Shown in pieces: positions 2,658 to 21,945 of a DNA stretch of 32,419 nt. Source of the DNA: Bdellovibrionia bacterium (lineage in GTDB: Bacteria; Bdellovibrionota; Bdellovibrionia; Bdellovibrionales; JAGQZY01). How positions within the stretch are numbered: position 1 is the stretch's first letter; each line of letters opens with the position of its first letter. The DNA is taken from positions 1 to 32,419 of the forward strand of contig JAUICP010000011.1 in NCBI GenBank assembly GCA_030427805.1, given 5' to 3'. The notes under the pieces were generated by a model. The model saw nothing but the letters and a program-made list of their open reading frames with translations. It made no database searches and had not been told where the DNA came from. The position numbers and the translations under genes are program-made.

Positions 2658-2695
2658 GATGCCAGGCACCAAATGGTAGCGCGGTTGCGTTGAGA
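2658..2695 (+). repeat. Dispersed intergenic repeat, copy 1
   Basis: This copy matches the family at GATGCCAGGCACC followed by AAATGGTAGCG, with a weaker tail. It lies 17 bp after the stop of the upstream gene. The first half is a near-perfect palindrome (GGTGCC-A-GGCACC in the consensus; G2 is A here). It aligns without gaps to the copies at 8614, 9308, 17843, 19488 and 21908. Confidence 0.85.
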
Positions 2696-2716
2696 ATGTA
2701 TAGAATATGATTCTTA

Positions 2717-2742
2717 AGAAACAAGTTTCTCGAACAATATTT
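2717..2742 (+). terminator. Weak hairpin with T-rich tail
   Basis: AGAAACAAGTTTCT (2717-2730) can form a short A/T-rich stem, followed by a T-run in AATATTTTTTAA. It could end transcription of the upstream + strand gene. The stem is only 5 bp with a 4-nt loop, so this is a weak candidate. Confidence 0.25.
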
Positions 2743-2755
2743 TTTAATACATAAG

Positions 2756-3565
2756 CTAGAAGGAATGTCGTTCCACTTCTTTTGCGCTGAAACCGATGGA
2801 TTCGAAAACTTTATTCGGAATTTTTTGGGCGATTTCTTTACTATGTGCGATGAGTTCGAGTTGAGTTCCCGACCATTCGTATTTCAAGATGAAGAGCCCT
2901 TCTGCCCCCCAAAGAGTCCAGTCATTAATTGTAACTTTTTGTTTAAACTGCCGTGTTAAAAGAGTCTCTACCTCGTTTCCGTCATCTTCATCGTCAATCT
3001 CTCCAGAGAGATATAAGGGTGAGTCTTCCAAATCAGAAAACCTTTGAGAAAGAAGATTTAAAACAAAGGCTTCGGGGTTTTTCGAAAACAAATCTACTTC
3101 AGGTTCTTCTAAGGAGTCATTGGGATCGTCTTCATTAAGATCATCTTCAACTCGATCAAAATCAATACAGTAAATATGTTCTCGATACTCTGTTTTTTCA
3201 TATTCAGTTGAATTGACTTCCCATTTTTTAAAGCCGTACCTGATATCCTCGTCATCCGTGAAATTAAATAGACAAACGAAGTCTCCGCATTTTGTTTTTA
3301 TTTCTGAATATTGTGGTTTCAAGTCGAGGGCTTTGAATTCAGGATCAGAATCTTTAAGGTCGGTCATGAGCTCAATGAGTTTTTTAGCTGAGGCTGGTAA
3401 GGCGTAGCCTAGGAACGTCTCGGCGCTTTTTATAGTATCCTCAGAGGTGCTCCTATTTGTATTAAATTTTATACTGAACCAATCCTTGATCGTTTCACAA
3501 CTCGCATTCCAGAAGTCTAGAGTACTACTTTCAGTATTTCGAAAAAACTTCAATGGATCTATCAT
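2756..3565 (-). CDS. SMI1/KNR4 (SUKH)-like acidic protein
   Basis: 269 residues with no signal peptide or membrane segment; cytoplasmic and strongly acidic (DDEDDGNE and DLNEDDPNDS stretches). The N-terminal pattern IKSAETFLGYALPASAKKLI resembles the first helix of SMI1/KNR4-fold domains (IxxAExxLGxxLPxxxxxfl). Aromatic strand segments follow (FVCLFNF, HIYCIDF). SUKH-fold proteins often act as immunity proteins against secreted polymorphic toxins, or as structural scaffolds. Opposite orientation to the repeat-rich metallopeptidase operon, ending 115 bp past it, makes an immunity role conceivable but unproven. The assignment rests on motif memory. It could instead be an unrelated DUF. Confidence 0.5.
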   Translation of the reverse strand: MIDPLKFFRNTESSTLDFWNASCETIKDWFSIKFNTNRSTSEDTIKSAETFLGYALPASAKKLIELMTDLKDSDPEFKALDLKPQYSEIKTKCGDFVCLFNFTDDEDIRYGFKKWEVNSTEYEKTEYREHIYCIDFDRVEDDLNEDDPNDSLEEPEVDLFSKNPEAFVLNLLSQRFSDLEDSPLYLSGEIDDEDDGNEVETLLTRQFKQKVTINDWTLWGAEGLFILKYEWSGTQLELIAHSKEIAQKIPNKVFESIGFSAKEVERHSF

Positions 3566-3713
3566 TCAATCTCCTGAGGTCTTAAAGGTGAGAATATAAT
3601 TTATAGGGATCTCGTCGAGACTGCACCAATAGGAGCCATCGAACTCTACCAAAGTAGGTCGGTTTGTCGGCCAAAGAAGCTAATGCTAGGTAGTTAACTC
3701 CTTAGGTTATCTG

Positions 3714-3719
3714 TATAAT
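3714..3719 (+). promoter_or_regulatory. Possible -10 box for the 3736 gene
   Basis: A perfect TATAAT ends 16 nt before the ATG at 3736. No convincing -35 hexamer sits 16-18 bp upstream. With a start near 3726 the leader would be about 10 nt, and no Shine-Dalgarno is visible, so a nearly leaderless mRNA is possible. Confidence 0.35.
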
Positions 3720-3735
3720 TTTACGATAAACAATT

Positions 3736-4596
3736 ATGAAGTTTGCGGTTTCAGCTGGTCTTTTATCTATTGCTATTATTGTCGCTTATACCTTTTGGTG
3801 GAGTGAGCCCTCTTATGTCTTAGAAGGAGACGGGTGGAACTCAACCTCAGTCTCAGAAGACGCAACTCAAGAGTCTGCGGCAAGACAACCTGCAGCTTCA
3901 GAAGACCTTCCAGAAAATCAAGTCGATCAGCCAGTAGCTGGCGAAGGTGATTCCCTAGAATCTTTAGTTGCAAACCTTGAAATTGATAGTGGGTTTATGT
4001 CAGATCTTGGGCAAGGAGAGTCGGCCCAGGTTGTCAGGGGACTTTTTCATCTTTTAGAGAGAGCGGCTGGTGGTGATGAAGAAGCACTAAAGCTTCACGC
4101 ATTGCTTTTGGCAAAAATTAAATCCTCCAGTGAAGGCTATGGCCACATCTTAGAGGCTATTAAACGCTGGCAAGATTATCCGGAGCGCTCTTTTGATCGG
4201 GTGGGCCTTTTAGAAATTTTAGCTGAAAGTAACGAGTTCAAAGATGAAGTGAACGCCATTGCTAAAAAAGAAATGGTCGATAACGGTAGTAAAGAAGTCA
4301 CCATGCCCGATCAAGCCGCCACCGAAGAAGAGCTTGATGAATCCCTATCGACCACCCATGATATGTATGCTCCTGTTACGGCCCATAGAATCTTTTTAGA
4401 AACGGCTGGTGACGGCCCCCAAGCCCTTGAGGGTTCGATGATGGCCATCGAAGCCCAAGACAATCACAATGTCAGAGAGGCCATGATTCAAGATTTCAAA
4501 GAGATTCATCCAGATGAGGTCGAAGAGCTTCTTCGCTACCTACGAAGCCGTGGGATTGATCTCATCGAGACCAACCACCAAGACAATGAAGAATAA
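3736..4596 (+). CDS. Membrane-anchored periplasmic protein of unknown function
   Basis: 286 residues. Residues 5-22 (VSAGLLSIAIIVAYTFWW) form a signal anchor after a single Lys, followed by an acidic Ser/Glu/Gln-rich linker to about residue 80 and then a predicted mostly helical soluble domain. The helical part contains EEALKLHALLLAK and EEVEELLRYLRSRG. This could be a repeat-type helical scaffold, but no catalytic motif is evident. The ATG has no Shine-Dalgarno; a TATAAT lies just upstream. It converges on the C39-like peptidase gene with a 16-bp gap. I do not recognise the family. Confidence 0.7.
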   Translation: MKFAVSAGLLSIAIIVAYTFWWSEPSYVLEGDGWNSTSVSEDATQESAARQPAASEDLPENQVDQPVAGEGDSLESLVANLEIDSGFMSDLGQGESAQVVRGLFHLLERAAGGDEEALKLHALLLAKIKSSSEGYGHILEAIKRWQDYPERSFDRVGLLEILAESNEFKDEVNAIAKKEMVDNGSKEVTMPDQAATEEELDESLSTTHDMYAPVTAHRIFLETAGDGPQALEGSMMAIEAQDNHNVREAMIQDFKEIHPDEVEELLRYLRSRGIDLIETNHQDNEE

Positions 4597-4612
4597 TTTT
4601 TTAATACTGTGA

Positions 4613-5416
4613 CTACTTCTTTCGACCAAAAGAAGAGAAGCTGTGAAGTAGGTTTCCACCGTTACCTAGATGATAAGCTGTGCTAAATGAGAGGTGTGAT
4701 GGCAACACATGGCTTGCCCACTTTCCATTAACATTGCGCTTAAGCTTATTGATCTTAGTTCTCCAAGGACCATTTGATTTTGTGGGATCATTAAAGGTCG
4801 CATAGGCATTATTAACTGCTTTGAGTGGCATGATGTGCCCACCGTTTCGCGTATAAACACAATTGTAAGTGCCATTGGCCTTAAGCTTACAAGAGCGCTT
4901 GTACCAGCCAAAATTAAGTACCGGAACTCGGTTGGCTTTTAACTGATTCATTAGTCTGTTGCGAGTAATTGCTGCTGATTTATTGACGTAGAATTTATTC
5001 GATGTCATCTGCGCGCCGAAGTCTCGAACTCTTGCAGCGTAATAATTATTGAGAGTTGTAAAGTAAGTTCCGCCGGCCTTAGTGGTATTGAGTTTTTTTG
5101 CCATATATTCGATTTTACCGTATTGTCCGTAAACCTTCTTTTTATAGAAAACATTTGAGTTAGAACCACTTTTTCCGGCAAGTCCTTGCCCAACCATAAC
5201 GGCATCAAGAGCCATTGCTACAGCCGTAGGGCCACAAAGGTTGGTTGTGCCATTGTTATAGTATTTCCAGCGCGGAAGTAAACTTGTATGGTTTTGGTCA
5301 AAGTGTCTCATTGACTTAGCGACACAGTTATTCGCATCAGAGCAAGTGACTTTTGCCTGAGCAGTGAATGAAAACGAAATAATAGTAAATAATAAGACGT
5401 AGAATAATTTGGTCAT
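4613..5416 (-). CDS. Secreted C39-like papain-fold cysteine peptidase
   Basis: 267 residues with a clear Sec signal peptide (hydrophobic residues 4-18, cleavage after AQA at 21). NLCGPTAVAM places a candidate catalytic Cys at residue 61 at the start of a helix, and NGGHIMPLKAV supplies the His at 194, followed by a short strand and FNDP for the Asn/Asp. The Cys...His...Asn/Asp order with CGPTA is the signature of Peptidase_C39-like domains. The stand-alone secreted form suggests a periplasmic or extracellular peptidase, not an ABC-exporter leader peptidase, since no ABC or membrane domain follows. The C-terminus is basic (GRKK). It converges on the preceding gene. Substrate unknown. Confidence 0.72.
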   Translation of the reverse strand: MTKLFYVLLFTIISFSFTAQAKVTCSDANNCVAKSMRHFDQNHTSLLPRWKYYNNGTTNLCGPTAVAMALDAVMVGQGLAGKSGSNSNVFYKKKVYGQYGKIEYMAKKLNTTKAGGTYFTTLNNYYAARVRDFGAQMTSNKFYVNKSAAITRNRLMNQLKANRVPVLNFGWYKRSCKLKANGTYNCVYTRNGGHIMPLKAVNNAYATFNDPTKSNGPWRTKINKLKRNVNGKWASHVLPSHLSFSTAYHLGNGGNLLHSFSSFGRKK

Positions 5417-5602
5417 ATTGCCCCCCAGCGATATAGTGCTGAGTTTTGCAAGGTCGGTACCTCTGAGACCTGATCTCTCCGCTCTGAAGCCAAATGACTG
5501 TCGAAGTTTTTACTAGCTGTCCATGATGTGGTTAACACTGAATAGGTCTTATAAAAAATGTCCCTTTTCAGAACAAACAGCTCTCCGAAGTGTTCTTAAA
5601 AT

Positions 5603-6803: not shown

Positions 6804-8450
6804 TTAAAAATGGGCCTCACAGCGCATGAGTCTTTGCACCTCTAAATAAGATTCTCGCTCGCTAACTCTGGCCGGAAGGTCTTCCATAATTGTTGCAATT
6901 CCGCCTCTAACTTGCGGATTAAAACCGGGGGCGAGCTGTAAATCGAATCGCTCAAAAAACTTTCGCAAGACGAGGACACCTTCAATATTGGCTAGACTCT
7001 TACCCGTACAGACCCGTGGTCCACAACCAAAAGAAAAATCCATGGGGATTCCCAAGTCTTTAAGTTTGCGATTGTTCTCAGGACTTTGTCTTTCGGGGTG
7101 GAATTCATCGGCGGGAAAACCCGTTACTTCCACACCGTAGTGGGCTTCGCTGCGAAGGGCTGCGCGGTGGTTAAAAAAGAGAATCGATCCTTCGGGAAAA
7201 GAGTAGGAGCCGTTTTTAGTTTCGATCTGTACACCTTCAGTGGCTTGTCTGCCCATCACGAAGACAGGGGAATCAAGTCGGAGTGTTTCGGACCAGGCCT
7301 TTTTTAAGTAGCTATCAGAAAAGACTTGTTCTTGCTCGCTGGTTGTTTGAATTTCGGCGATCACTCTTTGGTAGACTTCGCGGTTAGAAAAAATTCTATA
7401 GATCGCCCAACTAAGACCCGCCGCCGTTGTTTCGTGGCCGGCAACGATCATCGTCTTTACCTGCTCTTTTATTTCTTGATCCGTGTATGAGGGGCTTCCG
7501 TCTTCTTCTTTGGCCGTCATAAATGCATCCAGCAGATCACCATTTTGCCCAACACCGACATCTCGACGGCGTTCGATAATTCTTTCGACCATTTGATCAA
7601 AGTTGCCATAGACTCTTCGCGCACTTTGGGAAATCGGTAAAAATCCCGGAAGGCCCGCGACACCGGCTTGGGTGTTTAATATCGCTTCGTAGCGTTGCAG
7701 ACGGTAAATTTCAGAAAAGTCTGCAACGAGTGTGTCTTCATCTAATCCCAAGTCCTCTAGGGATGTGCTCATCGTTGTCATCAATATCACCCTAAGAGTG
7801 ATTTTTACGAGTTCATCACGTAAAGAAAAATACTGGCCACCTGAGTCTTGTTGTTGTGAAACAGAATTCAAGCCAACTTCGATGGCTTGGTTCATGGCAC
7901 CAAAAAGCTTTGGGCCTCTAATGGCTCTCGGGTTAAGGCTACGCTTAAAAAGGCCTGCGGCTTTCCACCAAGAGGGGCCATCTGAAACAAAGGTGCTACT
8001 CGGACCAAAAATCATTTCAAGGGGTTTGTAGATAAAAGGGTCTTTTGCAAAAGGGCTATCACCCTCACCATGGTTTTGTGAGGTATGGTTGAGGATCTCA
8101 GCTTCAAGGGTGGGATCACCAATGACATAAAACAAGTAGCCGTTTGGTCCAATAATTCGCGAAAAAGGCCCATTGATTTGTACCACGTAATCGAGAGCAT
8201 CCAAGGGGTCACTGACATACATACCAGAAGCACGGAGGGCGGTCATCGCACCAATTCTTCGAGCTCGTACGTCTTCGCCTTGGGCGGGACTGAGAATGTG
8301 GTAGAGATTTGAAAGGCTTGTCGGCGCAATCGTTGGGCGATTTCCAAAAACCGATCGAATTGATTGGGCGTTTAAAGCACCTGCGAACAATAGAAGTCCC
8401 AAGAACAAAAGTTCTTTAAAAAATGGTTTCTTGAAGTTTCTATTCGTCAT
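6804..8450 (-). CDS. Cytochrome P450 with N-terminal export signal
   Basis: 548 residues from the ATG at 8450, chosen because an AAAAGG site sits just upstream and the next upstream start (8474) has none. All P450 hallmarks are present: AGHETT in the I-helix (residues 337-342), ETLR as the K-helix ExxR, and FSFGCGPRVCTG with the haem-ligand Cys at 481. P450s insert one oxygen atom from O2 into an organic substrate using electrons from a partner. The oddity is the first 30 residues: basic NFKK, a hydrophobic run (LLFLGLLLFAGALNA) and a plausible cleavage after ALNA. That is a signal peptide or membrane anchor, unlike typical soluble bacterial P450s. No ferredoxin or reductase gene lies nearby. 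Substrate unknown. Confidence 0.92.
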   Translation of the reverse strand: MTNRNFKKPFFKELLFLGLLLFAGALNAQSIRSVFGNRPTIAPTSLSNLYHILSPAQGEDVRARRIGAMTALRASGMYVSDPLDALDYVVQINGPFSRIIGPNGYLFYVIGDPTLEAEILNHTSQNHGEGDSPFAKDPFIYKPLEMIFGPSSTFVSDGPSWWKAAGLFKRSLNPRAIRGPKLFGAMNQAIEVGLNSVSQQQDSGGQYFSLRDELVKITLRVILMTTMSTSLEDLGLDEDTLVADFSEIYRLQRYEAILNTQAGVAGLPGFLPISQSARRVYGNFDQMVERIIERRRDVGVGQNGDLLDAFMTAKEEDGSPSYTDQEIKEQVKTMIVAGHETTAAGLSWAIYRIFSNREVYQRVIAEIQTTSEQEQVFSDSYLKKAWSETLRLDSPVFVMGRQATEGVQIETKNGSYSFPEGSILFFNHRAALRSEAHYGVEVTGFPADEFHPERQSPENNRKLKDLGIPMDFSFGCGPRVCTGKSLANIEGVLVLRKFFERFDLQLAPGFNPQVRGGIATIMEDLPARVSERESYLEVQRLMRCEAHF

Positions 8451-8613
8451 AATGGGACCTTTTCTTTCATGCACTTATAGGAGCAAATTCTGTTCCCTTC
8501 TTAGATCTAAAGTATTGACAATAGTGGTGTTTAGATAGTCACCAGGAGGGCCTATTTTGAAGTGTAAGACACAAAATGGGTGCGAATATGCACTGATACT
8601 TGAATATCACTAA

Positions 8614-8651
8614 GGTACCAGGCACCAAATGGTAGCTTACGTGAGTCGAAA
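8614..8651 (+). repeat. Dispersed intergenic repeat, copy 2
   Basis: GGTACCAGGCACC, then AAATGGTAGCT, then a tail with GTGAGTCG. It ends exactly against the stop codon of the minus-strand gene at 8652. It differs from the consensus by single bases (G4 to A, G24 to T). Confidence 0.88.
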
Positions 8652-9203
8652 CTAAATCTTAAGGCCTAAATGTTTTTGGATGAATTGGTCAAAGAACAGG
8701 GTTGCCTCGGTTTCAAACCGCTTCATCTTTTCAATGACTTTATGGGGCTTTCCAGTGTGCAAGTGAATGACTTGAGAAGTCGGATTATGATCTTTATGGT
8801 ACATGATAAAAAGTTCCTCTGAACTTCCATATCCATCTTGTCGTTCAATACGTTCTTTAGCCGACTGATCATACTTTAATTCAGATAGGAACTTCCGAAT
8901 ACTATCAATCTCACTATGTTCGATGGGTACAGCATATTTAACTCGACTTCTTTTCTCGTCGATATCCCACCAAATAAATTGGGCCACTTTTTTAACCAAA
9001 TCAATTTCGACTCTCTTTAAACCGACATCTAAGGGCGTTCCACATTCGTGATCATTAGGGTCGGCCGGAATACGGAGTCCATAAAAGTATCTAAGACTCG
9101 TGATTTCTTTGACGTTCATAATTTGATCCACCTGCCTTGGTTTAGACGAAAAACCAAGTATAAAACTAGCTAAAAGAATTGTAAGGCATTTTAGTTTCTT
9201 CAT
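8652..9203 (-). CDS. Small secreted or anchored protein of unknown function
   Basis: 183 residues from the ATG at 9203. The longer frame reaching 9353 is rejected because its first 50 codons run through a dispersed repeat and lack a signal, whereas MKKLKCLTILLASFILGF is a good signal peptide. The mature part is mixed alpha/beta with several charged strands (KRVEIDLVKKVAQFIWWDI, SEELFIMYHKD) and ends in a helix (FFDQFIQKHLGLKI). No catalytic motif is recognised. A weak TGAG site lies 3 nt before the ATG. It is followed, 200 bp on, by the P450 start, with a dispersed repeat between them. Confidence 0.65.
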   Translation of the reverse strand: MKKLKCLTILLASFILGFSSKPRQVDQIMNVKEITSLRYFYGLRIPADPNDHECGTPLDVGLKRVEIDLVKKVAQFIWWDIDEKRSRVKYAVPIEHSEIDSIRKFLSELKYDQSAKERIERQDGYGSSEELFIMYHKDHNPTSQVIHLHTGKPHKVIEKMKRFETEATLFFDQFIQKHLGLKI

Positions 9204-9307
9204 AATCTCAAGATAGAGTTTATCGAATATATACAAGACCTTCAATCGGACCAGACGTCCTGCTCCAGAATACGAAATCACCCCCTGCCGTCTTGAGTCA
9301 ATCAAAA

Positions 9308-9345
9308 GGTGCCAGGCACCAAGTGGTAGCGTCTGTGTGTCGGAA
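9308..9345 (+). repeat. Dispersed intergenic repeat, copy 3 (best match)
   Basis: A perfect palindrome core GGTGCCAGGCACC, then AAGTGGTAGCG, then a tail with GTGTGTCGGAA. It lies between divergent genes (starts at 9203 minus and 9403 plus). It serves here as the reference copy for the family. Confidence 0.93.
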
Positions 9346-9402
9346 AATTTCATTCGATGAACCTTTTGGCAGTTAAGGACATTCGTCAGCTATTAGCTTT
9401 GT

Positions 9403-9669
9403 ATGGAATTTAAGGTCGAAAATGGTCTCCTAAAAGGGAACATAAATTGTATATGTATTCCTAAAATGTTCGAAATCACTAATAGAGACATGGAATGTAT
9501 TGACGTTCTCGATAATGCACTTTCTAGTGTTTATGAATTGCTTGCCGAACCCAGGGTCCGCCGCGCAAGTATCGAAGAGTCGAGAAAGATAATTACTGAA
9601 GCCATTGATCTCTATGAAGGGGCTGTTGAGTCAAGTGTTCTTAACTGTTACCTTGAAGGCGAACATTAA
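9403..9669 (+). CDS. Small hypothetical protein
   Basis: 88 residues. No Shine-Dalgarno is visible before the ATG, and no signal or membrane segment. The sequence has two or three Cys, an acidic amphipathic helix-rich C-terminal half (EESRKIITEAIDLYEGAVE) and no known motif. It sits alone between a dispersed repeat and the convergent regulator gene. It could be a real small gene or a chance frame; amino-acid composition and the lack of a competing frame favour real. Confidence 0.45.
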   Translation: MEFKVENGLLKGNINCICIPKMFEITNRDMECIDVLDNALSSVYELLAEPRVRRASIEESRKIITEAIDLYEGAVESSVLNCYLEGEH

Positions 9670-9741
9670 AGTGTCTGGCCCAACTAGCAGGTCGCCCTTT
9701 TTACAAACAAATAAATGTGCCCCAGATTCTTCCTTTTGGAA

Positions 9742-11220
9742 TTAGATTGCTTTGAGGCGATAGCGGGTTTTAGACCCAGAACCGAGTTTTTCGATCGGGC
9801 CTGCTTCGCTACATAGTTTGACGAGAATTCGGGCCGCCGACCTTGGTGGCTTTTTGGTAATTTGAGCAAACTCTTGGGCTTTGAACTCTCTGGTTCCAAA
9901 TTTGGAAAAAAGAATTTCCTTGTATTCATCAAGAGGATCAAAATGGGGGAGGCTGTGGAGGTGTAGATACTTAATAGTGACTCTAGATTGAGCACGCAGT
10001 CGATAGCCGTAACCCCTTCGGTTGGTCATATTCAAGCCAGAAGGGTGTTTAGCTATGATGTTTCTAAGGCGTTTTAGTAGCTTATAAGTTTTTTCTTTTG
10101 AAGACTCTGGATCAAAGTGAGTTTCCCCATACCCAGATCGAAACAATTCGTACAGCGATCTGGGACTGTAAATATCTGAAAAAAGAGTGACGAGCACTGC
10201 TTTCATTGAATCTGAAAGATTGAGTTGCAATCTTTCATCTGTAAAGTTTCCCTTTTTCATGTCAAATATAATGAGATTCCCACTATCATCTCCCCCAATA
10301 GGGATATTGGAATCGAGATGAAACTGACTTTCTGTAAGCTTGAGGGCGCGTTCTCGAAAGTATTTATTGGGAGTTCCAAAGTAGGCTCTGTTAAAGAGGT
10401 CTTCGTTCTTAGTAAGAATGGATTCATAGAGATCACATTCGCGAAGTGTTTCCCAATGTAGAAAGGTTCTTGCCTGCATCCGAACTTCAGAGAGTTGTTC
10501 TGCAACGACCCTGGAATTTGATTTTCTGTATTTGAGCTCAGTGATGACTCGCCATTTATTTGAAAAGAGCCAACTAATATTATTCGATATTTTTAGCAAC
10601 TCTTCACTCTCTTTGAAGAGTGAAATGGCTTCCTCGAGCCTATCATCAAGAAAGAATTTTTGCCCCTTCATTTCTAGGCAGTTTGCCAGAATGACGTTAT
10701 GCCCCCTTTTTTTTGCTATGAAAAGAATTTCTTCGATGAACTCTGAGAACTGATCGTAGTTCTCACACGTCAAAAGTGCCGAACATAAATTAAGGCCGTA
10801 AACAAGATCCTGATAACTCTCAAAACTTTGAGGCTTATTGCGGAGCAAGACTGACCTCGCTTTATCATACTCCCATGTTCGAAATAGAGAGTCGGCATAG
10901 ATAATTAGATAATCTTGTAGGTCGCTCTCATTGATCTTATCAAAGAGTTCTTTGGCTTCGACATGATTTCCGACACCGGCACAACTACTTGCATATTCGG
11001 CAATCACTTCTGGAGAGGCTTTATCTATATTTTCATTGATGAGTCGAAATAAAAGATTTGTTGCATATTGATACATTCCCGTTCGACGGGCTATTCGCGC
11101 CACTGGTAAAAGGGAGTCTCCATCAACCCCTTTTTTTTGAACTTTCTTTAGTTCAGCTCTAACGAGCGAGCCCTGACCCGTAGCTAAGAGTTTTTCGGCT
11201 TGCTTGATCCAATTTTTCAA
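9742..11220 (-). CDS. TPR-type transcriptional regulator with winged-helix domains
   Basis: 492 residues, cytoplasmic. Residues 1-290 are tandem helical pairs of TPR type (for example YATNLLFRLI, HVEAKELFDKI, ISLFKESEELLK). Residues about 335-412 resemble an OmpR/PhoB-type winged helix, ending in the typical wing NRRGYGYRL after a KLLKRLRNIIAKH recognition-helix region. Residues about 425-492 form what looks like a second winged helix (FKAQEFAQITKKPPRSAARI, then KTRYRLKA). The TPR plus DNA-binding layout resembles SARP/MalT-like signal-integrating regulators, but there is no receiver domain. The gene is divergent from the beta-propeller lipoprotein gene across 86 bp, so it may control that gene or itself. 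Ligand unknown. Confidence 0.75.
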   Translation of the reverse strand: MKNWIKQAEKLLATGQGSLVRAELKKVQKKGVDGDSLLPVARIARRTGMYQYATNLLFRLINENIDKASPEVIAEYASSCAGVGNHVEAKELFDKINESDLQDYLIIYADSLFRTWEYDKARSVLLRNKPQSFESYQDLVYGLNLCSALLTCENYDQFSEFIEEILFIAKKRGHNVILANCLEMKGQKFFLDDRLEEAISLFKESEELLKISNNISWLFSNKWRVITELKYRKSNSRVVAEQLSEVRMQARTFLHWETLRECDLYESILTKNEDLFNRAYFGTPNKYFRERALKLTESQFHLDSNIPIGGDDSGNLIIFDMKKGNFTDERLQLNLSDSMKAVLVTLFSDIYSPRSLYELFRSGYGETHFDPESSKEKTYKLLKRLRNIIAKHPSGLNMTNRRGYGYRLRAQSRVTIKYLHLHSLPHFDPLDEYKEILFSKFGTREFKAQEFAQITKKPPRSAARILVKLCSEAGPIEKLGSGSKTRYRLKAI

Positions 11221-11277
11221 GGCTGTATCCTTTTGCCAATAATGTCGGTTAATTTCCGTTTAGCCTTTAGTCTATTA

Positions 11278-13436: not shown

Positions 13437-13490
13437 AACACTCACTGGTCACACTTGTCTGTAAAACTCTCACCTTAAACTTCCTAAAAT

Positions 13491-13524
13491 AAGTAGAAAG
13501 AAACTTTTATTCTACTTTCGTTTT
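13491..13524 (+). terminator. Stem-loop with T-rich tail between lipoprotein genes
   Basis: AAGTAGAA (13491-13498) pairs perfectly with TTCTACTT (13510-13517) across an 11-nt loop and is followed by TCGTTTTG. It lies 54 bp after the stop at 13436 and just before the GGGAGG site of the next gene. It could be a terminator of the upstream gene or a leader hairpin of the downstream one. Confidence 0.5.
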
Positions 13525-13534
13525 GGGAGGATCA

Positions 13535-15787
13535 ATGAAAAGAAATTGGATTACAATATTTTTTGTTGTTTTTTTACATCTAGGCTGTTCAGAATTTCAG
13601 TCTAATTATATGAATTATAGTGGCGGCGACGACTTGGCCTCTGAAGAGCCGATTAGAGTCAATTTACAAAAAATCAAAAGTATAAGCGCAAGTTCCCATG
13701 ATGGTAATGAACCCAATAATATTCTAGATAATGACTTGAATACTCGATGGTCAGCTGAGGGAGAGGGCGAATACGTTGAAGTTTTGTTCACAGAAGCCCA
13801 TTCGGTAAAAACACTCTTTCTCGCATTTTTTAAGGGTGATATTGTTTCCCACTCGTTTGGAGTCGAAGCAATACGCGAAGATGGATCACGTAGCGAGATG
13901 AAGCGTTTTACAAGCTCAGGTCAGACTATTTATCTGCAACAGTTTGACTTTGAGACGGAGCGAGCCATTGGTTTACGAATTACTGGCTTTGAAAATAATC
14001 AGAATAAGTGGAATAGTTATACTGAAGTCCTCTTTTTACTTGGTGAGCCCATGGCGGCTCCTGAGCCCGTAAAGCCGGTGGAACTCGCTATTGTTTCGAC
14101 GCAATCGAGTTCTGATGACGGAAATGGATCGGATAACTTAATCGATGGTGATTTCTCGACGAGGTGGTCGGCCAATGGAAGTGGCCAATATGTTGACCTC
14201 AATCTCGAAATGCAAAGTAAAATTTCTGAAATTCAACTCTCTTTCTACAAAGGGGATCAAAGAACATCAGACTTTGAAGTCTTTGCCATTCAAGGAGAGC
14301 TGACAAAGAGAATTCTACCTAGAACCCTCTCATCAGGAGAGAGTACCGAACTTCAATCTTTTAAAGTTGATGAAACACAGGCGAGTACGATACGAATTGT
14401 CGGATACGGCAATAGTCAAAATTCTTGGAACAGTATTACTGAAACAGTAATTATTGGTACTACTACAGGGGTGGCTCCGGTTCCCCCCCAAACCCCATCC
14501 CTACCCACACCGGAGCCGCCCACATCTCCAACTCCCATGCCCTCTAATGGAGACCGAATAGTTACAATTCGCACCAAAACTATTAAGAAAGATGCGATTA
14601 CTTGGACTCTAGATAGAGAATATGAAGTTGGGCAGTATATTAATGGTGATTACTTTGTGGTTGATTCAGGAAGTGGAGTGAGAGTTGTAGCGGTTTCACC
14701 TGCACCCAGTGGCGGCCGTAACGGTAGTGGAGTCAATGTTAAAGCCATGACTCAACCTGCAGATTCTAGAGCCCTTGGATATTCGGCTGGGATCAGCTTT
14801 CCGAAAGTTTTAAAATCGGGTGATGCTCTTTTGAGTTTTAAAAGTACTCAAGGGAATGAAAATAATAGTTGTGAGGGAGCTCGATATCGAAATCAAGGTG
14901 GATATTGTGAGTTTCACTCCCAGGGAAAGGTTCTTGATGGATCGGTTTTGACGGTTGTTGATCGAGCTCTGTTGAAGTTTTCGTTTCGTCCGCCTTCTTT
15001 AGGTGATGCCACTAATCGAAAAACTTTTGTCTTACCTAATATTGACGACATAGTTAGAAGTTTACCTCAATTGAACTCGAGTTCGTTGCCGGATACTTCA
15101 GTCCTGATTCGAAGTCGGGAACGGTATCAATTTTTGGGTTATACCCACTGGGGGAGAAGGCAAAGTGCACCAATGAATAATCAAGCCACCTATGCCGCCT
15201 ATTCGAGAAATCCAGAAGTCTTGCTGGCTTTGACTGCGAACATTTCTTTTGATGCCAAAAAGAAACTACTCATCAGTGTATTACAGCATGGAATTGAGAT
15301 TTATGGACTCTCTCGTTTAACAAATATCAGAGGGGCAGACGGAGGACACCACACTCACATGGCTAGTGTTTTGGCTGTGACTGCAGAAATATTGAAAGAT
15401 ACAGATATGAGAAATAAATCTCGATCCGTTCAATTTTCTGAAAAGCAAATGACCTATATCGGATCTGGCGGAAAGGCTCTTTGGGGTCGGGTATGTCCGT
15501 CGAGTCCTAACAATTTTCAGAATATGTGTTCAGGGAATTATCAAGGTGGTGCTAAGGATTGTAGAGACCCAAAAGGTTTAAAAGATGCTTTGGATCAGAG
15601 TTCTTGTAATGCTTATCAAGATCTCAACGGTAAATACTACCCTGGCCAAGCCCTCGCGATGATTCTCCTTGGTGCAGTGGATGATTTTAATCACCAGCCA
15701 TTTTTCGAATATACAGACCGTTGGATGAGGATCAAGAATAGTACGAGTTCCGCATTTGTAACTGACATGTGGAACCGCTACCGGTAA
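13535..15787 (+). CDS. Lipoprotein with two discoidin (F5/8 type C)-like domains
   Basis: 750 residues from the ATG at 13535, chosen because GGGAGG lies 4 nt upstream and the upstream GTG/MGGS start lacks a site. The lipobox is HLGC (Cys at residue 18). Two consecutive galactose-binding-like beta-sandwiches follow (about 45-165 and 180-305). Each has DGN....N.LD.D..TRWSA near its start and a G..N..NSWNS/KWNSYTEV pattern near its end, typical of F5/8 type C carbohydrate-binding domains. A Pro/Thr linker (about 310-335) leads to a 400-residue region I do not recognise. That region contains GQYINGDYFVV, several Cys and GADGGHHTHMAS. A role in binding and perhaps processing surface polysaccharide is inferred. 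Confidence 0.8.
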   Translation: MKRNWITIFFVVFLHLGCSEFQSNYMNYSGGDDLASEEPIRVNLQKIKSISASSHDGNEPNNILDNDLNTRWSAEGEGEYVEVLFTEAHSVKTLFLAFFKGDIVSHSFGVEAIREDGSRSEMKRFTSSGQTIYLQQFDFETERAIGLRITGFENNQNKWNSYTEVLFLLGEPMAAPEPVKPVELAIVSTQSSSDDGNGSDNLIDGDFSTRWSANGSGQYVDLNLEMQSKISEIQLSFYKGDQRTSDFEVFAIQGELTKRILPRTLSSGESTELQSFKVDETQASTIRIVGYGNSQNSWNSITETVIIGTTTGVAPVPPQTPSLPTPEPPTSPTPMPSNGDRIVTIRTKTIKKDAITWTLDREYEVGQYINGDYFVVDSGSGVRVVAVSPAPSGGRNGSGVNVKAMTQPADSRALGYSAGISFPKVLKSGDALLSFKSTQGNENNSCEGARYRNQGGYCEFHSQGKVLDGSVLTVVDRALLKFSFRPPSLGDATNRKTFVLPNIDDIVRSLPQLNSSSLPDTSVLIRSRERYQFLGYTHWGRRQSAPMNNQATYAAYSRNPEVLLALTANISFDAKKKLLISVLQHGIEIYGLSRLTNIRGADGGHHTHMASVLAVTAEILKDTDMRNKSRSVQFSEKQMTYIGSGGKALWGRVCPSSPNNFQNMCSGNYQGGAKDCRDPKGLKDALDQSSCNAYQDLNGKYYPGQALAMILLGAVDDFNHQPFFEYTDRWMRIKNSTSSAFVTDMWNRYR

Positions 15788-15794
15788 TTCACAA

Positions 15795-15853
15795 AGTGCC
15801 GGGTACCAGGTGTGAGGCTATCAGCTCCACCGAAAAGTGCCTGGCAACTTTTA
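15795..15853 (+). repeat. Degenerate dispersed-repeat copies
   Basis: Just after the stop at 15787, AGTGCCGGGTACC (15795-15807) matches the palindromic core of the family with a few changes. A second imperfect palindrome, AAAAGTGCCTGGCAACTTTT (15834-15853), carries the inverted core GTGCCTGGCA. Both look like decayed copies. Confidence 0.55.
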
Positions 15854-15913
15854 ACATCAGTGATCAAGTAAAATTATGAGGTGTTGAGACATTCGAACAT
15901 CACTTTCACATAC

Positions 15914-15941
15914 AAAAAAGGTCCGCCAGCAGGCAGACCTT
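15914..15941 (-). terminator. Rho-independent terminator of the minus-strand serine hydrolase gene
   Basis: AAGGTC (15918-15923) pairs with GACCTT (15936-15941), with inner pairs GCC/GGC and an AGCA loop. Read on the minus strand, the hairpin is followed by a run of T. It lies 35 bp downstream of the stop of the minus-strand gene at 15976. Confidence 0.75.
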
Positions 15942-15975
15942 CTAAAAGACTAAATTTCAATTGAATGGGATCTTC

Positions 15976-17769
15976 TTAGAACAAATCGATATTCGGCCAC
16001 GAAGATACTTCGTCAGCAATTTCAACCATCAAATCATTTAACTCGGTGACTTCACCGTCGTTAGTGTTGGTGGCAGCCGATAGAGTAAAACCATCGCTTC
16101 GTCTGCGGAGAATGGCTTCAGTTCCGGACATTTCGCCGTAGTGAGCGTAATTAGAACTTCCAGAAAGAACACCAGGGTGGTTGATAAAGCGCAATAGATC
16201 AATCGGAGTGGCAATCCACCCACCGTGGGAGTCAAAGCGCTGGGGCTTTACACTGCTGTATGCACTTGATCCATAGTACTTGGCTTCGTTGGCCTTGCGA
16301 TCGGCTTCTTTATCGCCACCAATGACCATACCTTTAGCGCCAGCGGGGATTAAAACCGCTTGTCTCACATAGGCTTCATAGGACTTTCCAGAGGCTTCTT
16401 CAATCACTCGACCAAGAATGCTGTAACCAAAGTTTGAGTACATGGCAGCACCTAGATCAGTTCCACCACAAGGGTCTGAAGTGAGTGAACTACCGGGAGT
16501 GTAACCAAGAGGATACAACTCAAGGGCCCAATCGATGAGATCATTTTTTGAAGTCCCAGTGTAGCGAAACATGGGATCACTACAAACATCGTCCTTATCT
16601 TGTCTGACAAAGCCAGCTCGATGGCGAACCAAGTGATCGACCGTAATATTGTTAATGGCTGTATTATTGCTCGGAGTAGAAAACGTTCCACCTAATATAC
16701 TATTGCGACCAAAAACCTTGTCTGAGTAATCAACGTTATTGAGGGTATCAATGGCGGCAACAGTAATGGGTTTACTGACACTGGCAACACGAAAGCGGTG
16801 TCTTGGGCCCGCGGCTTGGTTGTTTTCTTTATCGATGCGCCCATAGGCTTGGGCAAATTTCAATTTGCCGTTAAGGGCCACTGCCAAAGTGAGTGCCGGA
16901 ATGTCGTATTCATCCATGTAGGCTTTGACTTTGTTGCGGATGCGGTTGAGATCCCGACGCGAGTATCTTGGAGAGTCCCAAATGCCGTTAAACTTTACAC
17001 CCGATGCCGAGTTAAAGGCTTGAACGTAGCGCGGACTCCAGGCCGAGTAGTGGAGGTTATCAAATTTGGCTTGGTAGTTTTTAGAGCGAACTCCGTGGAA
17101 GGCCGAAATTCTGCCAGAAGTCTTCTCCCAAATGGCGGCGTAGCGGTCTTTTCCACTTTGTTTATAACCGGCAACCACTTTGAGTCTGTAGCCTTGCCTG
17201 GTGAAGTTATTAAAAGCTGTTTGGTACTGGCTATAGGTTAAACCGTGGCGTGCTGGTCTTTGCGGCTTTTTATCAAAAAGAGCGACAAAGCGGGGAGTTC
17301 CAGAAATATTAGCCACCGAAACGTGATTAAGCGCAAAGCCTTTGCCCTTCATCTCGTTCACGGCACTTTGATATTGGGCGGGAGTGAGACCGTGGCGAGC
17401 CGCCCAAGCTCCACTTTTTTTCTCAAAAATAGCGGCATAGCGAGCCTTACCTTTAACGGCGTAAATACTGACATAGGTGGGTTGATAGCCCTTGCCTTTA
17501 AACTCATTAACGGCTGCTTGGTATTGTTGCGAACTTAGGTTGTGGCGGGCCGCCCATTTGGGGCCCGATGTTTTATGCCAGATCGAGGCAAAGCGCGTTC
17601 CGTTTTTGGTGTATCCAGAAATAGAAACCAAGCGAAAGCCCTGGTTACTTAAGGTATTAAACTGCTGTTGGTATTGAGCGCCGGTCATACCATGTCTGGC
17701 CTTGTACTGTGCTGACCAAGCCGACACAGAGAATGCCGTCAGTAATAGAATGAGTAGTATTCTTCCCAT
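15976..17769 (-). CDS. Polyglycine-hydrolase-like protein: tandem beta-repeat domains plus beta-lactamase-fold serine hydrolase
   Basis: 597 residues with a Sec signal peptide (cleavage near WSA at 20). Residues about 21-262 are five tandem units of about 48 residues, each starting (A)RHGLT..QYQ and ending RYAAIWEK, matching the bacterial tandem-repeat family (BTRD1-type). Residues about 265-590 are a serine beta-lactamase/PBP-like domain with SVSK (330-333), YSN (444-446) and HGG (515-517), the three class-C-type active-site motifs. The same two-part architecture is known from fungal polyglycine hydrolases, which cleave glycine-rich linkers. Substrate here is unknown; peptidase or esterase activity is inferred. 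A GGGGGAA site precedes the ATG and a good terminator follows. Confidence 0.88.
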   Translation of the reverse strand: MGRILLILLLTAFSVSAWSAQYKARHGMTGAQYQQQFNTLSNQGFRLVSISGYTKNGTRFASIWHKTSGPKWAARHNLSSQQYQAAVNEFKGKGYQPTYVSIYAVKGKARYAAIFEKKSGAWAARHGLTPAQYQSAVNEMKGKGFALNHVSVANISGTPRFVALFDKKPQRPARHGLTYSQYQTAFNNFTRQGYRLKVVAGYKQSGKDRYAAIWEKTSGRISAFHGVRSKNYQAKFDNLHYSAWSPRYVQAFNSASGVKFNGIWDSPRYSRRDLNRIRNKVKAYMDEYDIPALTLAVALNGKLKFAQAYGRIDKENNQAAGPRHRFRVASVSKPITVAAIDTLNNVDYSDKVFGRNSILGGTFSTPSNNTAINNITVDHLVRHRAGFVRQDKDDVCSDPMFRYTGTSKNDLIDWALELYPLGYTPGSSLTSDPCGGTDLGAAMYSNFGYSILGRVIEEASGKSYEAYVRQAVLIPAGAKGMVIGGDKEADRKANEAKYYGSSAYSSVKPQRFDSHGGWIATPIDLLRFINHPGVLSGSSNYAHYGEMSGTEAILRRRSDGFTLSAATNTNDGEVTELNDLMVEIADEVSSWPNIDLF

Positions 17770-17842
17770 TGATTTCCCCCAAAAAAAATATAAATTTTCA
17801 AGCCTTCTAGCTACTCCATAGATGGGGATGAATCAATGCCGA

Positions 17843-17880
17843 GGTGCCGGGTACAAAGTGGTAGCGGGGGTGTGTCGTAA
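17843..17880 (+). repeat. Dispersed intergenic repeat, copy 4
   Basis: GGTGCCGGGTACA, then AAGTGGTAGCG, then a tail with GTGTGTCGTAA. The palindrome is partly decayed, but the arm and tail match the 9308 copy closely. It lies in the divergent spacer between the serine hydrolase and the YGLAD-repeat gene. Confidence 0.88.
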
Positions 17881-18039
17881 GTTAGGTACCTCATTGGTGA
17901 GGACGATTGAGAAGGGGTTTTCTAAGGTCCTAGCCGAGTATAAATTACCTTGAGAGGAGCAGAACTTGAGCTGGTAATTAGGTCATGATACGCCTTGCCG
18001 AGAGAAAGTTGATTGTTCGCTAGGTCAATGGGAGTTCTG

Positions 18040-18405
18040 ATGAAATTAATTCAATTCTTTATTTTAATTCAACTTTTCTTTGTGAACTTGGTTAGTGCCG
18101 AAGTTATCTATAAGACTTCGAGCTACGGACTCGCAGATATCGCCGTTTTTGAAACGACTAATTATGGGCTGGCGGATGTCGTGGTTTTTGAAACGACTAA
18201 TTATGGACTGGCCGATTGTGTAATCTATGAGGCTTCTAGTTACGGGCTTGCAGATGTTACTGTTTTTGAAACCTCCAGCTATGGACTTGCGGATATCGTT
18301 ATCTACAAAACAACAAATTATGGTCTCGCTGACGTTGTTGTCTTTAAAACTTCTAATTATGGTCTCGCTTCTAAGCCGGCCTGTCTTTATAAGTCCGGAA
18401 ATTAG
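18040..18405 (+). CDS. Small secreted protein of 13-residue YGLAD repeats
   Basis: 121 residues from the ATG at 18040, preceded by GGGAG at 18030-18034; the TTG at 18013 has no site. The signal peptide (residues 1-20, hydrophobic with cleavage near VSA) is followed by seven tandem 13-residue units of the form V-F/Y-E/K-T-S/T-S/N-YGLAD-V/I-V (39-bp DNA repeats at 18106-18372; the last is partial), then a short Cys-containing tail. Alternating hydrophobic strands and an invariant YGLAD turn suggest a tiny beta-solenoid. The pattern is reminiscent of repeat families such as DUF6150, but this link is uncertain. No enzymatic motif. Probably a secreted structural or binding protein. Confidence 0.8.
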   Translation: MKLIQFFILIQLFFVNLVSAEVIYKTSSYGLADIAVFETTNYGLADVVVFETTNYGLADCVIYEASSYGLADVTVFETSSYGLADIVIYKTTNYGLADVVVFKTSNYGLASKPACLYKSGN

Positions 18406-18611
18406 GGCTAAATAGTCTTAATTGCGAATCCACCTGTTCATCCCCAAAAAATCTCAAAATTAAACGTATATATCCTTTCCGATTATTCCTAAGTGAATAG
18501 ATCGTGACAGAACTCATCCATTTAATTCCACCAGTTTGATTTCTACCTCAGTATTACGGCATGTCCTTTGCTCAAACAACAAGTGGGTACGGTTTCGATT
18601 GGGGAGGATAG

Positions 18612-19454
18612 ATGGCTAAGCATTTCTTTTTAATAGTTTCATTATTATTCATTACAGCTTGTGGACAAGAGGGTTTTCAGCCTCTTTCGATCGAAGACGG
18701 ACCGGAGCTCAACGATAACGAAGTTCTTTTAGGTGATATGATTGTCGAGAAATCTAATGTTATTGGTTACGGACTGGAACCTGAAGAAGCGCAAGTGCTT
18801 GCAGACAAGTATCTTCAAGATCTCGATGGGGCCACTGAAGATTTAGGCGATGGCGAGGTCTCAGCAGCCGGTGTTATGGAGTCGGGCCGTCGTAAATGGC
18901 CCAATGGTCGTTTGCCCATTAAATTTGCCAAAGGTTTTAGTCAGGCGCAAAAAGATTATTTTTTTAGTGAATGTAAAAAGCTCGGGAGGAGAGCCAAAGT
19001 CAGATGTGTCGATGCCGGTAGTAGCACAAACTTTATTCGCGTTATTACGGGTAATTCTGGTTGTGGATGGTCCTATGTTGGAATGATTGGCGGAAGACAA
19101 GATCTATTCGTTGGCCGCAGTTGTTGGGGAAATGGCAGAGTGATTAAGCATGAGTTAATGCACGCTCTTGGTATGGCCCACGAACATAACCACCCGAACA
19201 GAGGCGATAAGGTCGCTATTAAGTGGAATAACATCGAAGAAGACTACAAACATAATTTTTATAGAGTAAAGAGTTCGTACAGACTCTCTAATTATAATTT
19301 TAATTCTATCATGCACTATCACTCACATGCTTTTAGCAAAAACGGCAAAAAGACCATCGTGAAGATCAATAATCCGAGCAGTTTAATTCCTTACAGCACT
19401 GTGATGACCAACTCCGATCACGTCATCTTAGAAAAGGTGTACGGGAAGAAGTAG
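18612..19454 (+). CDS. Astacin-like (M12A) zinc metallopeptidase lipoprotein
   Basis: 280 residues from the ATG after a GGGGAGG site (18601-18607). The lipobox FITAC (Cys at residue 17) gives lipid anchoring, followed by a propeptide-like region (about 20-95). The metzincin motif HELMHALGMAHEH starts at residue 180 and supplies the His-His-His zinc ligands, and SIMHY (Met234, Tyr236) is the Met-turn with the astacin Tyr. GCGWSYVG and the short 280-residue length fit bacterial astacins. It should degrade proteins in the periplasm or outside the cell. Dispersed-repeat copies lie just after the stop. Confidence 0.9.
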   Translation: MAKHFFLIVSLLFITACGQEGFQPLSIEDGPELNDNEVLLGDMIVEKSNVIGYGLEPEEAQVLADKYLQDLDGATEDLGDGEVSAAGVMESGRRKWPNGRLPIKFAKGFSQAQKDYFFSECKKLGRRAKVRCVDAGSSTNFIRVITGNSGCGWSYVGMIGGRQDLFVGRSCWGNGRVIKHELMHALGMAHEHNHPNRGDKVAIKWNNIEEDYKHNFYRVKSSYRLSNYNFNSIMHYHSHAFSKNGKKTIVKINNPSSLIPYSTVMTNSDHVILEKVYGKK

Positions 19455-19467
19455 CGATAGGTCAGAA

Positions 19468-19480
19468 GGTGCCCGGTACT
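19468..19480 (+). repeat. Partial dispersed-repeat core
   Basis: GGTGCCCGGTACT resembles the palindromic core (GGTGCC-N-GGCACC) and sits 20 bp before a full copy, suggesting a decayed duplicate or a paired arrangement. Confidence 0.5.
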
Positions 19481-19487
19481 AACTGAA

Positions 19488-19525
19488 GGTGCCAGGCACC
19501 AAAAGGTAGCGCGCATACGTCTCAT
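19488..19525 (+). repeat. Dispersed intergenic repeat, copy 5
   Basis: A perfect core GGTGCCAGGCACC, then AAAAGGTAGCG, then a divergent tail (ACGTCT). It lies between the astacin-like gene and the next lipoprotein gene. Confidence 0.88.
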
Positions 19526-19616
19526 ACCAGTACATATCGACTCTGAATTGTCCGTTTTTTAGCGGTGAGTCTTCTTCATAATAAAGGAGGGGGGTTACTA
19601 GTTAAGGGGGCAAGTC

Positions 19617-20339
19617 ATGAAGAAGTCGGTTTATCTGTTTTATACACTCTTATTATTTTTTGTTCTTCAGGGATGTGGTGGAGGTGCAAGTGCGCCAAAT
19701 TCAGATCCAAGAAGTTCTCAATCCTATGTGTTCAACGGGATTCCTGTGGATGCTGAGTATTTAAACTCTGAGGGGCAAATTGCCGACCCGGCGTTATTTT
19801 GCAGTGACATGTGGGGATTACAACTTGAGAAGTATCCCTTAGGACTCGTTAAAACCCATCGAACTATCTCGGTAACTGGCCCACTGACTGTGACCTATGA
19901 CACCACCGAAGAAGTAACGAGCCAGACATCAAATAGTTACACCCTTTTGATTACTACGACTGGGGACTTACAAGGTTCAGAAACAAAGATCCACGACCGT
20001 AGTCAATTTGTTACGGACTGTGAAAGTATTGTTCGCTCTGGTGTGCCGGGAACCAGTGGATCGATTGAATTAACCTTTTCAACAAACATCCATAGTCAGC
20101 AACGAACGAGTATCGATGTTGGCGCTGGCACCTTTGATACCCACTTTGTTGAAGGAGAGAGTTCAGTGACCGTACCCTTGAATGGTCAGGACTACACCAT
20201 TAATACCCATGTTCAAACGTGGTGGGGAATCGAGGGCCTTGCGCGGGGTCTTGTCGTAAAGAGCATCAATCAGCAAACCGGAGGCCTAAACGGCGGCATG
20301 CTACAAACTGTCGAGCTGATCGAGTTGTCTGTTGATTGA
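19617..20339 (+). CDS. Lipoprotein of unknown function
   Basis: 240 residues. An AAGGGGG site (19604-19610) precedes the ATG. The signal ends in the lipobox VLQGC (Cys at residue 20), followed by a Gly/Ser linker. The mature part is beta-rich (for example VTGPLTVTYDT, SSVTVPLNGQDYTINTHVQTWW) with only two further Cys and no catalytic signature. Its position in a run of secreted and lipid-anchored proteins suggests an envelope role. Family not recognised. Confidence 0.65.
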   Translation: MKKSVYLFYTLLLFFVLQGCGGGASAPNSDPRSSQSYVFNGIPVDAEYLNSEGQIADPALFCSDMWGLQLEKYPLGLVKTHRTISVTGPLTVTYDTTEEVTSQTSNSYTLLITTTGDLQGSETKIHDRSQFVTDCESIVRSGVPGTSGSIELTFSTNIHSQQRTSIDVGAGTFDTHFVEGESSVTVPLNGQDYTINTHVQTWWGIEGLARGLVVKSINQQTGGLNGGMLQTVELIELSVD

Positions 20340-20473
20340 TGTGGCTGAGGGAATATTACTGAGAAAATTCCCGTCGCCCAATAATAGCGAAAACACTTTT
20401 AAACTAGATTAAAGAATCCGATAAGTCGATCGAATGCTTAAAAAGAGCTGTGTTCGTTCCTATCTCAGAATGA

Positions 20474-20511
20474 CAAGACCTGTCTTGAATTTACTGTGAT
20501 TGTGTTAGGAT
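20474..20511 (+). promoter_or_regulatory. Candidate promoter with overlapping palindromic operator
   Basis: TTGAAT (20485-20490) can serve as -35 and TAGGAT (20506-20511), preceded by TGT, as an extended -10, with a 15-bp spacer. An inverted repeat CAAGAC-CT-GTCTTG (20474-20487) overlaps the -35, a typical repressor or activator site position, just upstream of the lytic transglycosylase gene. Confidence 0.4.
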
Positions 20512-20540
20512 GGTAGGAGCGAATCAAGCAAGGGGGAGTT

Positions 20541-21908
20541 TTGCGTTTATTATTAGGTCTTTTAGCGATGTTGTTTCTTTTGCTAGGCTGCCAGCTCGAT
20601 CAACCAAAGAATTACAGTGCCAAGCTCGGTGATTATCAAAAAGAGCTTGAAGTCCTCGTCCGTATGTCGGCGACCACCTATTTTAAGGACCGCGATGGAG
20701 AACCCTCTGGCTACGAATATCAACTCGTCAAAAAATTTGCCGATGATAACGGCTTAAAACTCAAACTGACTGTTGTAGACTCTATCGATGATGTATTTGA
20801 GGCTATCGCTCACGACAAGGCCCACGTCTATGTGGGGGGAATCACAAAAACTGAGGAGCGCGATAAGAAGTTCCAGTTTTCTGAAAGTAACTTCGAGGTG
20901 CAACAACAAGTGGTTTGTCGCAATCGAAAGCGTGTCAAAAAAGTGGATGACTTAGTCAGTCTCAAATTGCAGGTGCCCTCAAAGAGTAGCTATGAAGAAA
21001 GCTTAGTTAAACTCTCAAAAACAGTTCCCAATCTGAAGTGGGATTCTATAAAGGATGTGAATTCAGAGCAGTTGATCGAAGAGCTTTGGGAAAAGGACCA
21101 GGGGTGCATACTTGCTGACTCAAATATTGTTCAAGTTCACCAGAGGTACTTTCCGGAACTCAAGGTCGTTTATACGTTTCCGCAAAAAGAAGAGCTTGCG
21201 TGGATTGTGCAAAAAGACCAAGAAGACCTTCTCACAAAGATCAATTCATGGTTTCAAAAAAAAGAAGTCTTAAGTTTTCGAAAAAAGTTAGAAAATCAGT
21301 TTTATGGACACTTACAAGACTTTGATGTCTACGATACTAAAAAGTTTATTGAGCGGGTGAGTACCCGTTTACCAAAGTATGAGAAGTGGTTAAAACAAGC
21401 TGCCAAACAAGAAGGTTTTGATTGGAAGTTCTTGGCCGCAGTCGCTTACCAAGAGTCTCAGTGGAATCCAAAAGCCAAGAGTCCTACGGGCGTTCGTGGA
21501 TTTATGATGCTCACAAAAAACACGGCAAAATCCCTTGGTGTAACGAATCGGCTCGATCCAAAGGAAAGTATTTTTGCCGGAGCCAAATATTTGACGAAGA
21601 TGAAAAAAAGATTTCCGTCTTATATTAGGGGAGGGGATCGCAAGTGGCTCGCATTAGCTTCGTATAATGTGGGTTACTATCATTTGCGTGATGCCCAGGC
21701 CTTAGCTCTCCTCAAGGAATTTAATCCGAGTCAGTGGCGGGGAGTTCGAAAGGCACTTCCACTCTTGTCGAATTCTCGGTATTTTAAGAAAACCTGGTAC
21801 GGTTATGCCCGTGGACAAGAGCCCGTCGTTTACGTCGACCGAATCAAAAACTACTATGACATTTTAAAAAACGTTTATGGACGCGTCCGCCGCCCTGCTA
21901 GCAACTAG
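20541..21908 (+). CDS. mltF: MltF-like membrane-bound lytic murein transglycosylase (SBP3 + SLT)
   Basis: 455 residues from a TTG start with AGGGGGAG upstream. The lipobox LLLGC (Cys at residue 17) anchors it in a membrane. Residues about 35-265 form an SBP_bac_3-like domain (VLVRMSATTYFKDRDGEPSG, AHVYVGGITKTEERDKKF). Residues about 270-400 form a lysozyme-fold SLT domain with the catalytic Glu305 in YQESQW, followed by PTGVRGFMMLT. This order is that of E. coli MltF, which cleaves peptidoglycan glycan strands to 1,6-anhydro ends and may be regulated by the SBP domain. It converges on another lysozyme-fold-like gene. Confidence 0.88.
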   Translation: MRLLLGLLAMLFLLLGCQLDQPKNYSAKLGDYQKELEVLVRMSATTYFKDRDGEPSGYEYQLVKKFADDNGLKLKLTVVDSIDDVFEAIAHDKAHVYVGGITKTEERDKKFQFSESNFEVQQQVVCRNRKRVKKVDDLVSLKLQVPSKSSYEESLVKLSKTVPNLKWDSIKDVNSEQLIEELWEKDQGCILADSNIVQVHQRYFPELKVVYTFPQKEELAWIVQKDQEDLLTKINSWFQKKEVLSFRKKLENQFYGHLQDFDVYDTKKFIERVSTRLPKYEKWLKQAAKQEGFDWKFLAAVAYQESQWNPKAKSPTGVRGFMMLTKNTAKSLGVTNRLDPKESIFAGAKYLTKMKKRFPSYIRGGDRKWLALASYNVGYYHLRDAQALALLKEFNPSQWRGVRKALPLLSNSRYFKKTWYGYARGQEPVVYVDRIKNYYDILKNVYGRVRRPASN

Positions 21909-21945
21909 GTGCCAGGCACCAAGTGGTAGTGTGGGTGTCCCAAAT
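21908..21945 (+). repeat. Dispersed intergenic repeat, copy 6
   Basis: A perfect core GGTGCCAGGCACC, then AAGTGGTAGTG, then GGTGTCCC. It overlaps the last base of the mltF-like stop codon. It is the right-most copy in the window. Confidence 0.88.

Follow-up and report, generated by a model that had tools for sequence, protein, structure and literature searches.

The window, that is the whole stretch of DNA analysed here, is a complete contig (C4) of 32,419 bp from a host genome (G000) of 4.5 Mb in 11 contigs. Six copies of a repeat of about 37 bp were present on its + strand, at 2658, 8614, 9308, 17843, 19488 and 21908, and could be aligned without gaps, as the first-pass annotation had claimed; the reverse strand of the window had none. 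Each copy is built of a variant of GGTGCCAGGCACC, followed by AARTGGTAGCG and then a G-rich tail. The exact core GGTGCCAGGCACC occurs in three of the six (9308, 19488 and 21908), and the others carry GGTACC (8614), GATGCC (2658) or GGTGCCGGGTACA (17843). Degenerate cores had also been noted at 15795, 15834 and 19468; all of them were present, and those at 15795 and 15834 form an inverted pair. The features are as follows:

2658..2694, + strand: REP copy 1, with GATGCCAGGCACC head, AAATGGTAGCGC arm and GCGTTG tail, 17 bp past the stop of ORF 1582-2640
8614..8650, + strand: REP copy 2, with GGTACCAGGCACC head and tail GTGAGTC; sister-genome homology restarts directly after the copy
9308..9344, + strand: REP copy 3, with GGTGCCAGGCACC; sister-genome homology stops 7 bp ahead of the copy
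15795..15856, strand not assigned: degenerate inverted pair of cores, AGTGCCGGGTACC ... AAAAGTGCCTGGCAACTTTT, with a folding z of -2.35
17843..17879, + strand: REP copy 4, with GGTGCCGGGTACA head; sister-genome homology stops 7 bp ahead of the copy
19468..19480, + strand: degenerate core GGTGCCCGGTACT, shortly before copy 5 (19488)
19488..19524, + strand: REP copy 5, with GGTGCCAGGCACC and AAAAGGTAGCGCG
21908..21944, + strand: REP copy 6, with GGTGCCAGGCACC; its first G is also the third base of the TAG stop that closes the SLT-domain gene ahead of it

Only the stretches 3701-5521, 8646-9300 and 15952-17836 of the window's first 19.9 kb matched the sister genome (G001), so the gene content of this part is very variable. 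At the position matching copy 3 (9308) the sister genome has a truncated copy, and at the position matching copy 4 (17843) it has no REP. Sister contig C195 carries window-homologous and C2-homologous parts in a row; because it joins homologues of both, contig C2 is probably the neighbour of the window. The window itself begins within a coding frame in a tandem repeat of caggaagtaccaagagttcgg units (1-345), and a small protein built from internal repeats of the type SSYGLADIAVFETTNYGLAD is encoded at 18013-18405. The gene at 22000-23295 matches the catalytic domain of the T6SS peptidoglycan muramidase Tse3 (Pfam PF22115) and lies near genes for a transglycosylase and an astacin protease. This cluster probably encodes secreted enzymes which degrade cell wall or protein.

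Copy numbers in the host genome were obtained by pattern searches. The 19-mer CCAGGCACCAARTGGTAGC, with at most 3 mismatches, gave 20 matches against 2 for a reversed-pattern control, which bears out the expected genome-wide excess, and 15 of the 20 fell in three variable regions (C4, C2 and C6:1.006-1.076 Mb) of about 146 kb in total, or about 3% of the genome. The window family, with its GGTGCC head, is mostly present as single units. A phage collection searched for the repeat gave no match. The first-pass annotation had placed all copies between genes. Genome-wide this holds for 16 of the 20, which are outside every ORF of at least 100 aa; the remaining four overlap an over-extended N-terminus (9308), doubtful opposite-strand ORFs or a gene end. 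None of the six window copies lies in a convincing gene. Copy 9308 falls within ORF 8652-9353 as read at its longest, but the sister-genome orthologue of this ORF starts later (183 aa), so from the sequence comparison this copy is most likely intergenic.

The hairpin expected from the palindromic core, with a 5-bp stem and a 3-nt loop, was found in no more than three of the six copies in the window, and as single strands the copies folded hardly better than shuffled sequences (z from -0.1 to -2.1). Most copies have GTAG followed by CGCnnnnGCG, with a palindrome of only about 3 bp and weak covariation support. Covariation in the head and tail hairpins was not convincingly above shuffles.

A second family in the host genome, GGTAGAAGCTTCC-TTTTGGTAGCGCnnnnGCGTYA, has about 42 copies, including 26 exact 19-mers with a control of 0, and is younger than the window family. 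Its arm is the arm of the window repeat, the linker excepted. This GAAGCTTCC family is nearly invariant and carries the GTAG arm common to the window family. Many of its copies are found as inverted pairs 54-140 bp apart, which are REPINs, and some of these pairs enclose a host terminator-like hairpin. The common part linked with the RAYT is the arm, and the head palindrome differs between the families. At two loci (C6:1073862 and C6:1006475) a GGTGCC-headed REP and a GGTACTTGGTACC unit stand inverted about 75-90 bp apart, two different families sharing one element.

A search for the repeat in 60 genomes gave 13 matches in the sister genome, one match in one other genome and none in the remaining relatives. 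A RAYT, which had been proposed as the mobilising gene outside the window, was found in this sister genome, the MAG 'Bdellovibrionia bacterium isolate 2_bin.24'. It lies at a contig end (C180) with GGTAGAAGCTTCCTTTTGGTAGCGCATTCGCGTC upstream and inverted CTAGCTACCAAAAGG downstream, so it is flanked by the family which shares the arm. The protein (214 aa) has the HUH and NPV motifs, matches NCBIfam REP_Tyr_transpos at 66 bits, under the 80-bit cut-off, and is homologous to the solved TnpA-REP 4er8 (E=6.8e-11). Together with the dispersed family and the common arm, this supports a REP element mobilised by a RAYT. No RAYT with the GGTGCC-headed window family itself at its flanks was seen in the sister genome or in the host; the link of this family is through the common arm.

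The first-pass annotation saw no RAYT in the window, and the absence of this type extends to the whole host genome, where no RAYT of the sister type was found (no NF047646 match). At C3:284.6 kb the host genome has the last 27 bp of such a RAYT element, followed by the complete inverted repeat. Because the host genome is without this RAYT, its copies are probably orphans, and present mobility in the host genome is unlikely; most of the data are draft genomes. Two Y1 proteins of the host (C3:67 kb and C9:32 kb) were considered as RAYT and rejected, as they fit IS200 models instead and have no flanking REP core. An IS200-like Y1 protein is at a conserved position in both sister genomes (G000:C9 and G001:C245), and the latter is flanked by tandem copies of ATTTATAGGTTTGTTCCCGT.

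G003, a genome from another genus within the same family, has a RAYT of 47% identity bounded by GGTACCCGGTACCTTTTGCGGATGC and the inverse of GGTACCCGGTACCTTTTGCGGATGC; these palindromes are paired at many further sites. In two genomes of a third genus no Y1_Tnp match was found; each has only one or two stray cores, and one of them gave a weak, distant RAYT-like match. A scan of GTDB genomes gave 80 RAYT loci, roughly half of them in Bdellovibrionota, including Bdellovibrio bacteriovorus kdesi. Flanking inverted repeats exceeded the best of 133 shuffled controls in 42 of the 45 Bdellovibrionota RAYT loci tested, and 35 of the 45 had a GGTRCC-like head. A RAYT from another Bdellovibrionota family (L102) has window-type arms, of the TTTTGGTAGCGCACCCGCGTCA type, at both ends. 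An arm-flanked RAYT is thus observed in two genomes other than the host. The RAYT-flank repeats have copies elsewhere in the genome in G000, G001 and G003. Of 144 genomes of the class, 20 had the arm pattern, with up to 56 matches in one and a control near 0. Two-part REP/TIR elements of this RAYT-linked kind are widespread in Bdellovibrionota. In the genome with 56 arm matches (G015) many overlap in inverted orientation and give a 28-nt palindrome, TTTTGGTAGCGCAnnTGCGCTACCAAAA, which is a compact fused form of the arm. No paper of the collection searched contained the core sequence, and of the few in which both words occur none tied RAYTs to Bdellovibrio by title or abstract.

The copies abut stop codons. 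Among 78 copies from both genomes (host and sister, with shared orthologous copies entered twice), a same-strand stop codon lies no more than 2 nt from the head in 34, where about 2 were expected under a crude null; the earlier remark that copies often come just after a stop was therefore well founded. In the commonest arrangement, TA|G, the first G of the head completes TAG, and 30 of 31 window-family copies have an A directly before the head. Some genes read into elements of the GAAGCTTCC family and end at internal TAGs (+5, +22). GTAG REP termini often supply TAG stops to neighbouring ORFs (Di Nocera et al. 2013, PMC3733652). Presence of the element also differs between the two genomes. One site (L032/L066), located precisely at a TAG stop, is filled in the sister genome but empty in the host: after the coding end (...GEDG, then TAG) the repeat follows in the former and TTTGTAAAAC in the latter. 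At another site a lone 13-bp core in the sister genome corresponds to two cores about 65 bp apart in the host.

We consider it very probable that the repeat is a GTAG-type REP/TIR element, short and non-autonomous, and that a RAYT (TnpA-REP, HUH tyrosine transposase) copied it as single-stranded DNA. The unit consists of a 13-nt outer head (GGTGCCAGGCACC or, in the younger family, GGTAGAAGCTTCC), a short A/T linker and the conserved inner arm GGTAGCGCnnnnGCGTYA, which holds the GTAG guide-like motif. In TnpA-REP, GTAG functions in recognition and is believed to direct the cutting of REP DNA in its single-stranded form (PMC8266576). By analogy, the arm may be the part recognised by the RAYT, with GTAG as its guide, and the head may be the outer end. 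In this reading a RAYT gene (REPtron/TIRtron) or a miniature REPIN has a facing pair of units at its ends, and single units such as the window copies are dispersed relics. Insertion would take place after A, often in TTA or the TA of a stop codon; with such a target preference the first G of the head would often complete a TAG stop and the upstream protein would be left intact. The window copies are probably fossils which have lost their activity, because the cognate RAYT is gone from the host genome.

In a different reading, the repeats are recombination or cassette boundaries and gene blocks of this variable region are gained, lost or shuffled between REP copies, like attC cassettes. Copies 8614 and 9308 exactly enclose the block 8646-9300, which is also conserved, among other neighbours, in the sister genome; homology ends 0-8 bp from a REP at seven sites (8614, 9308, 17843, C2:1796, C2:37654, C2:40258 and C8:82971), and all main-family copies in the window and C2 have one orientation relative to GC skew (9/9). 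However, the region is variable everywhere, and synteny breakpoints were not in excess in its REP-bearing compared with its REP-free intergenic regions (8/12 vs 17/34, p=0.5). Genome-wide the replication-strand bias was not significant (14/20 by hand count, p about 0.12), and an integron attC array test gave no match to an IntI-type integrase (TIGR02249) over the cut-off in either genome, host or sister. Because the blocks stay in the order A-B-C, nothing beyond plain insertion or deletion is needed, which also argues against cassettes. We consider this reading unlikely, though a causal role of the REPs in the rearrangement of the fluid region is possible. That a RAYT cutting at single-stranded REPs excises or joins whole gene blocks between two copies, as a cassette-like system, seems to us quite doubtful; if true, such a system would be a driver of gene turnover in a Bdellovibrio-like lineage.

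The place after stop codons might instead reflect selection, if the repeats were retained to terminate transcription or to stabilise mRNA 3' ends. The abutment of 34 of the 78 copies and the palindromic core would fit such a role, but terminator-like sites in window 8400-22100 were at chance (13 vs 12.3), and the only REP copy which qualified, 9308, did so on the - strand (a G+C-rich hairpin and then a T run). The hairpins are weak and disrupted in three of six copies. Such a role also leaves unexplained why the arm outside the hairpin is conserved, why units are paired in inverted orientation and why there is a link to RAYT, and target preference with purging of in-gene insertions accounts for the position after stops; we regard it as improbable. 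A protein-binding site that does not move, such as one for a nucleoid or segregation protein, would agree with the single orientation of the window and C2 copies relative to replication skew and with the clustering of 15 of the 20 copies. Against this, presence and absence differ between the sister genomes, including filled and empty pairs, the RAYT flanks carry the same arm, and the arm is patchily distributed in the order, so that we give it a very slim chance. The RAYT-linked REP/TIR element remains our preferred reading: the repeat is an orphan subfamily of this two-part element, which adds a new lineage to a known type of genome parasite and is not a new system. It extends REP/RAYT elements to Bdellovibrionota, with an end recognisable across the phylum (GGTRCC head, TTTT linker and often a GTAG or GCGTYA arm). 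The filled and empty sites, together with sister genomes in which the RAYT is present or absent, offer a setting to study how targets at stop codons are chosen and what becomes of orphan REPs.

IS200/IS605 elements have a Y1 HUH transposase and insert 3' of a short target without duplication. The elements described here share the Y1 HUH transposase and differ in that small non-autonomous units dominate, the protein is of the RAYT type, and a palindromic head is joined with a GTAG arm. They resemble the GTAG REPs and REPINs with RAYT of Escherichia, Pseudomonas and Stenotrophomonas in being short intergenic multi-copy repeats with GTAG beside a putative small palindrome, in their inverted pairs, in the pairs which flank a RAYT gene and in termini supplying TAG stops. 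Different from these are the extra 13-nt outer head (GGTRCCnGGYACC or GGTAGAAGCTTCC) ahead of the GTAG arm, the low number of copies (tens), the mostly single units of the window family and the host without RAYT. TIR families of TIRtrons (TIRYT) include 'double palindromic' TIRs and a degenerate GTAG unit with an unrelated stem-loop (PMC3733652); the main text of that paper has no mention of Bdellovibrio. As in those TIRtrons, the inverted repeats that bound a RAYT-like gene here are longer and contain two palindromic parts, and moderately abundant copies occur elsewhere, single or as dimers. Unlike in them, the GGTRCC head is common to most RAYT flanks of the phylum.
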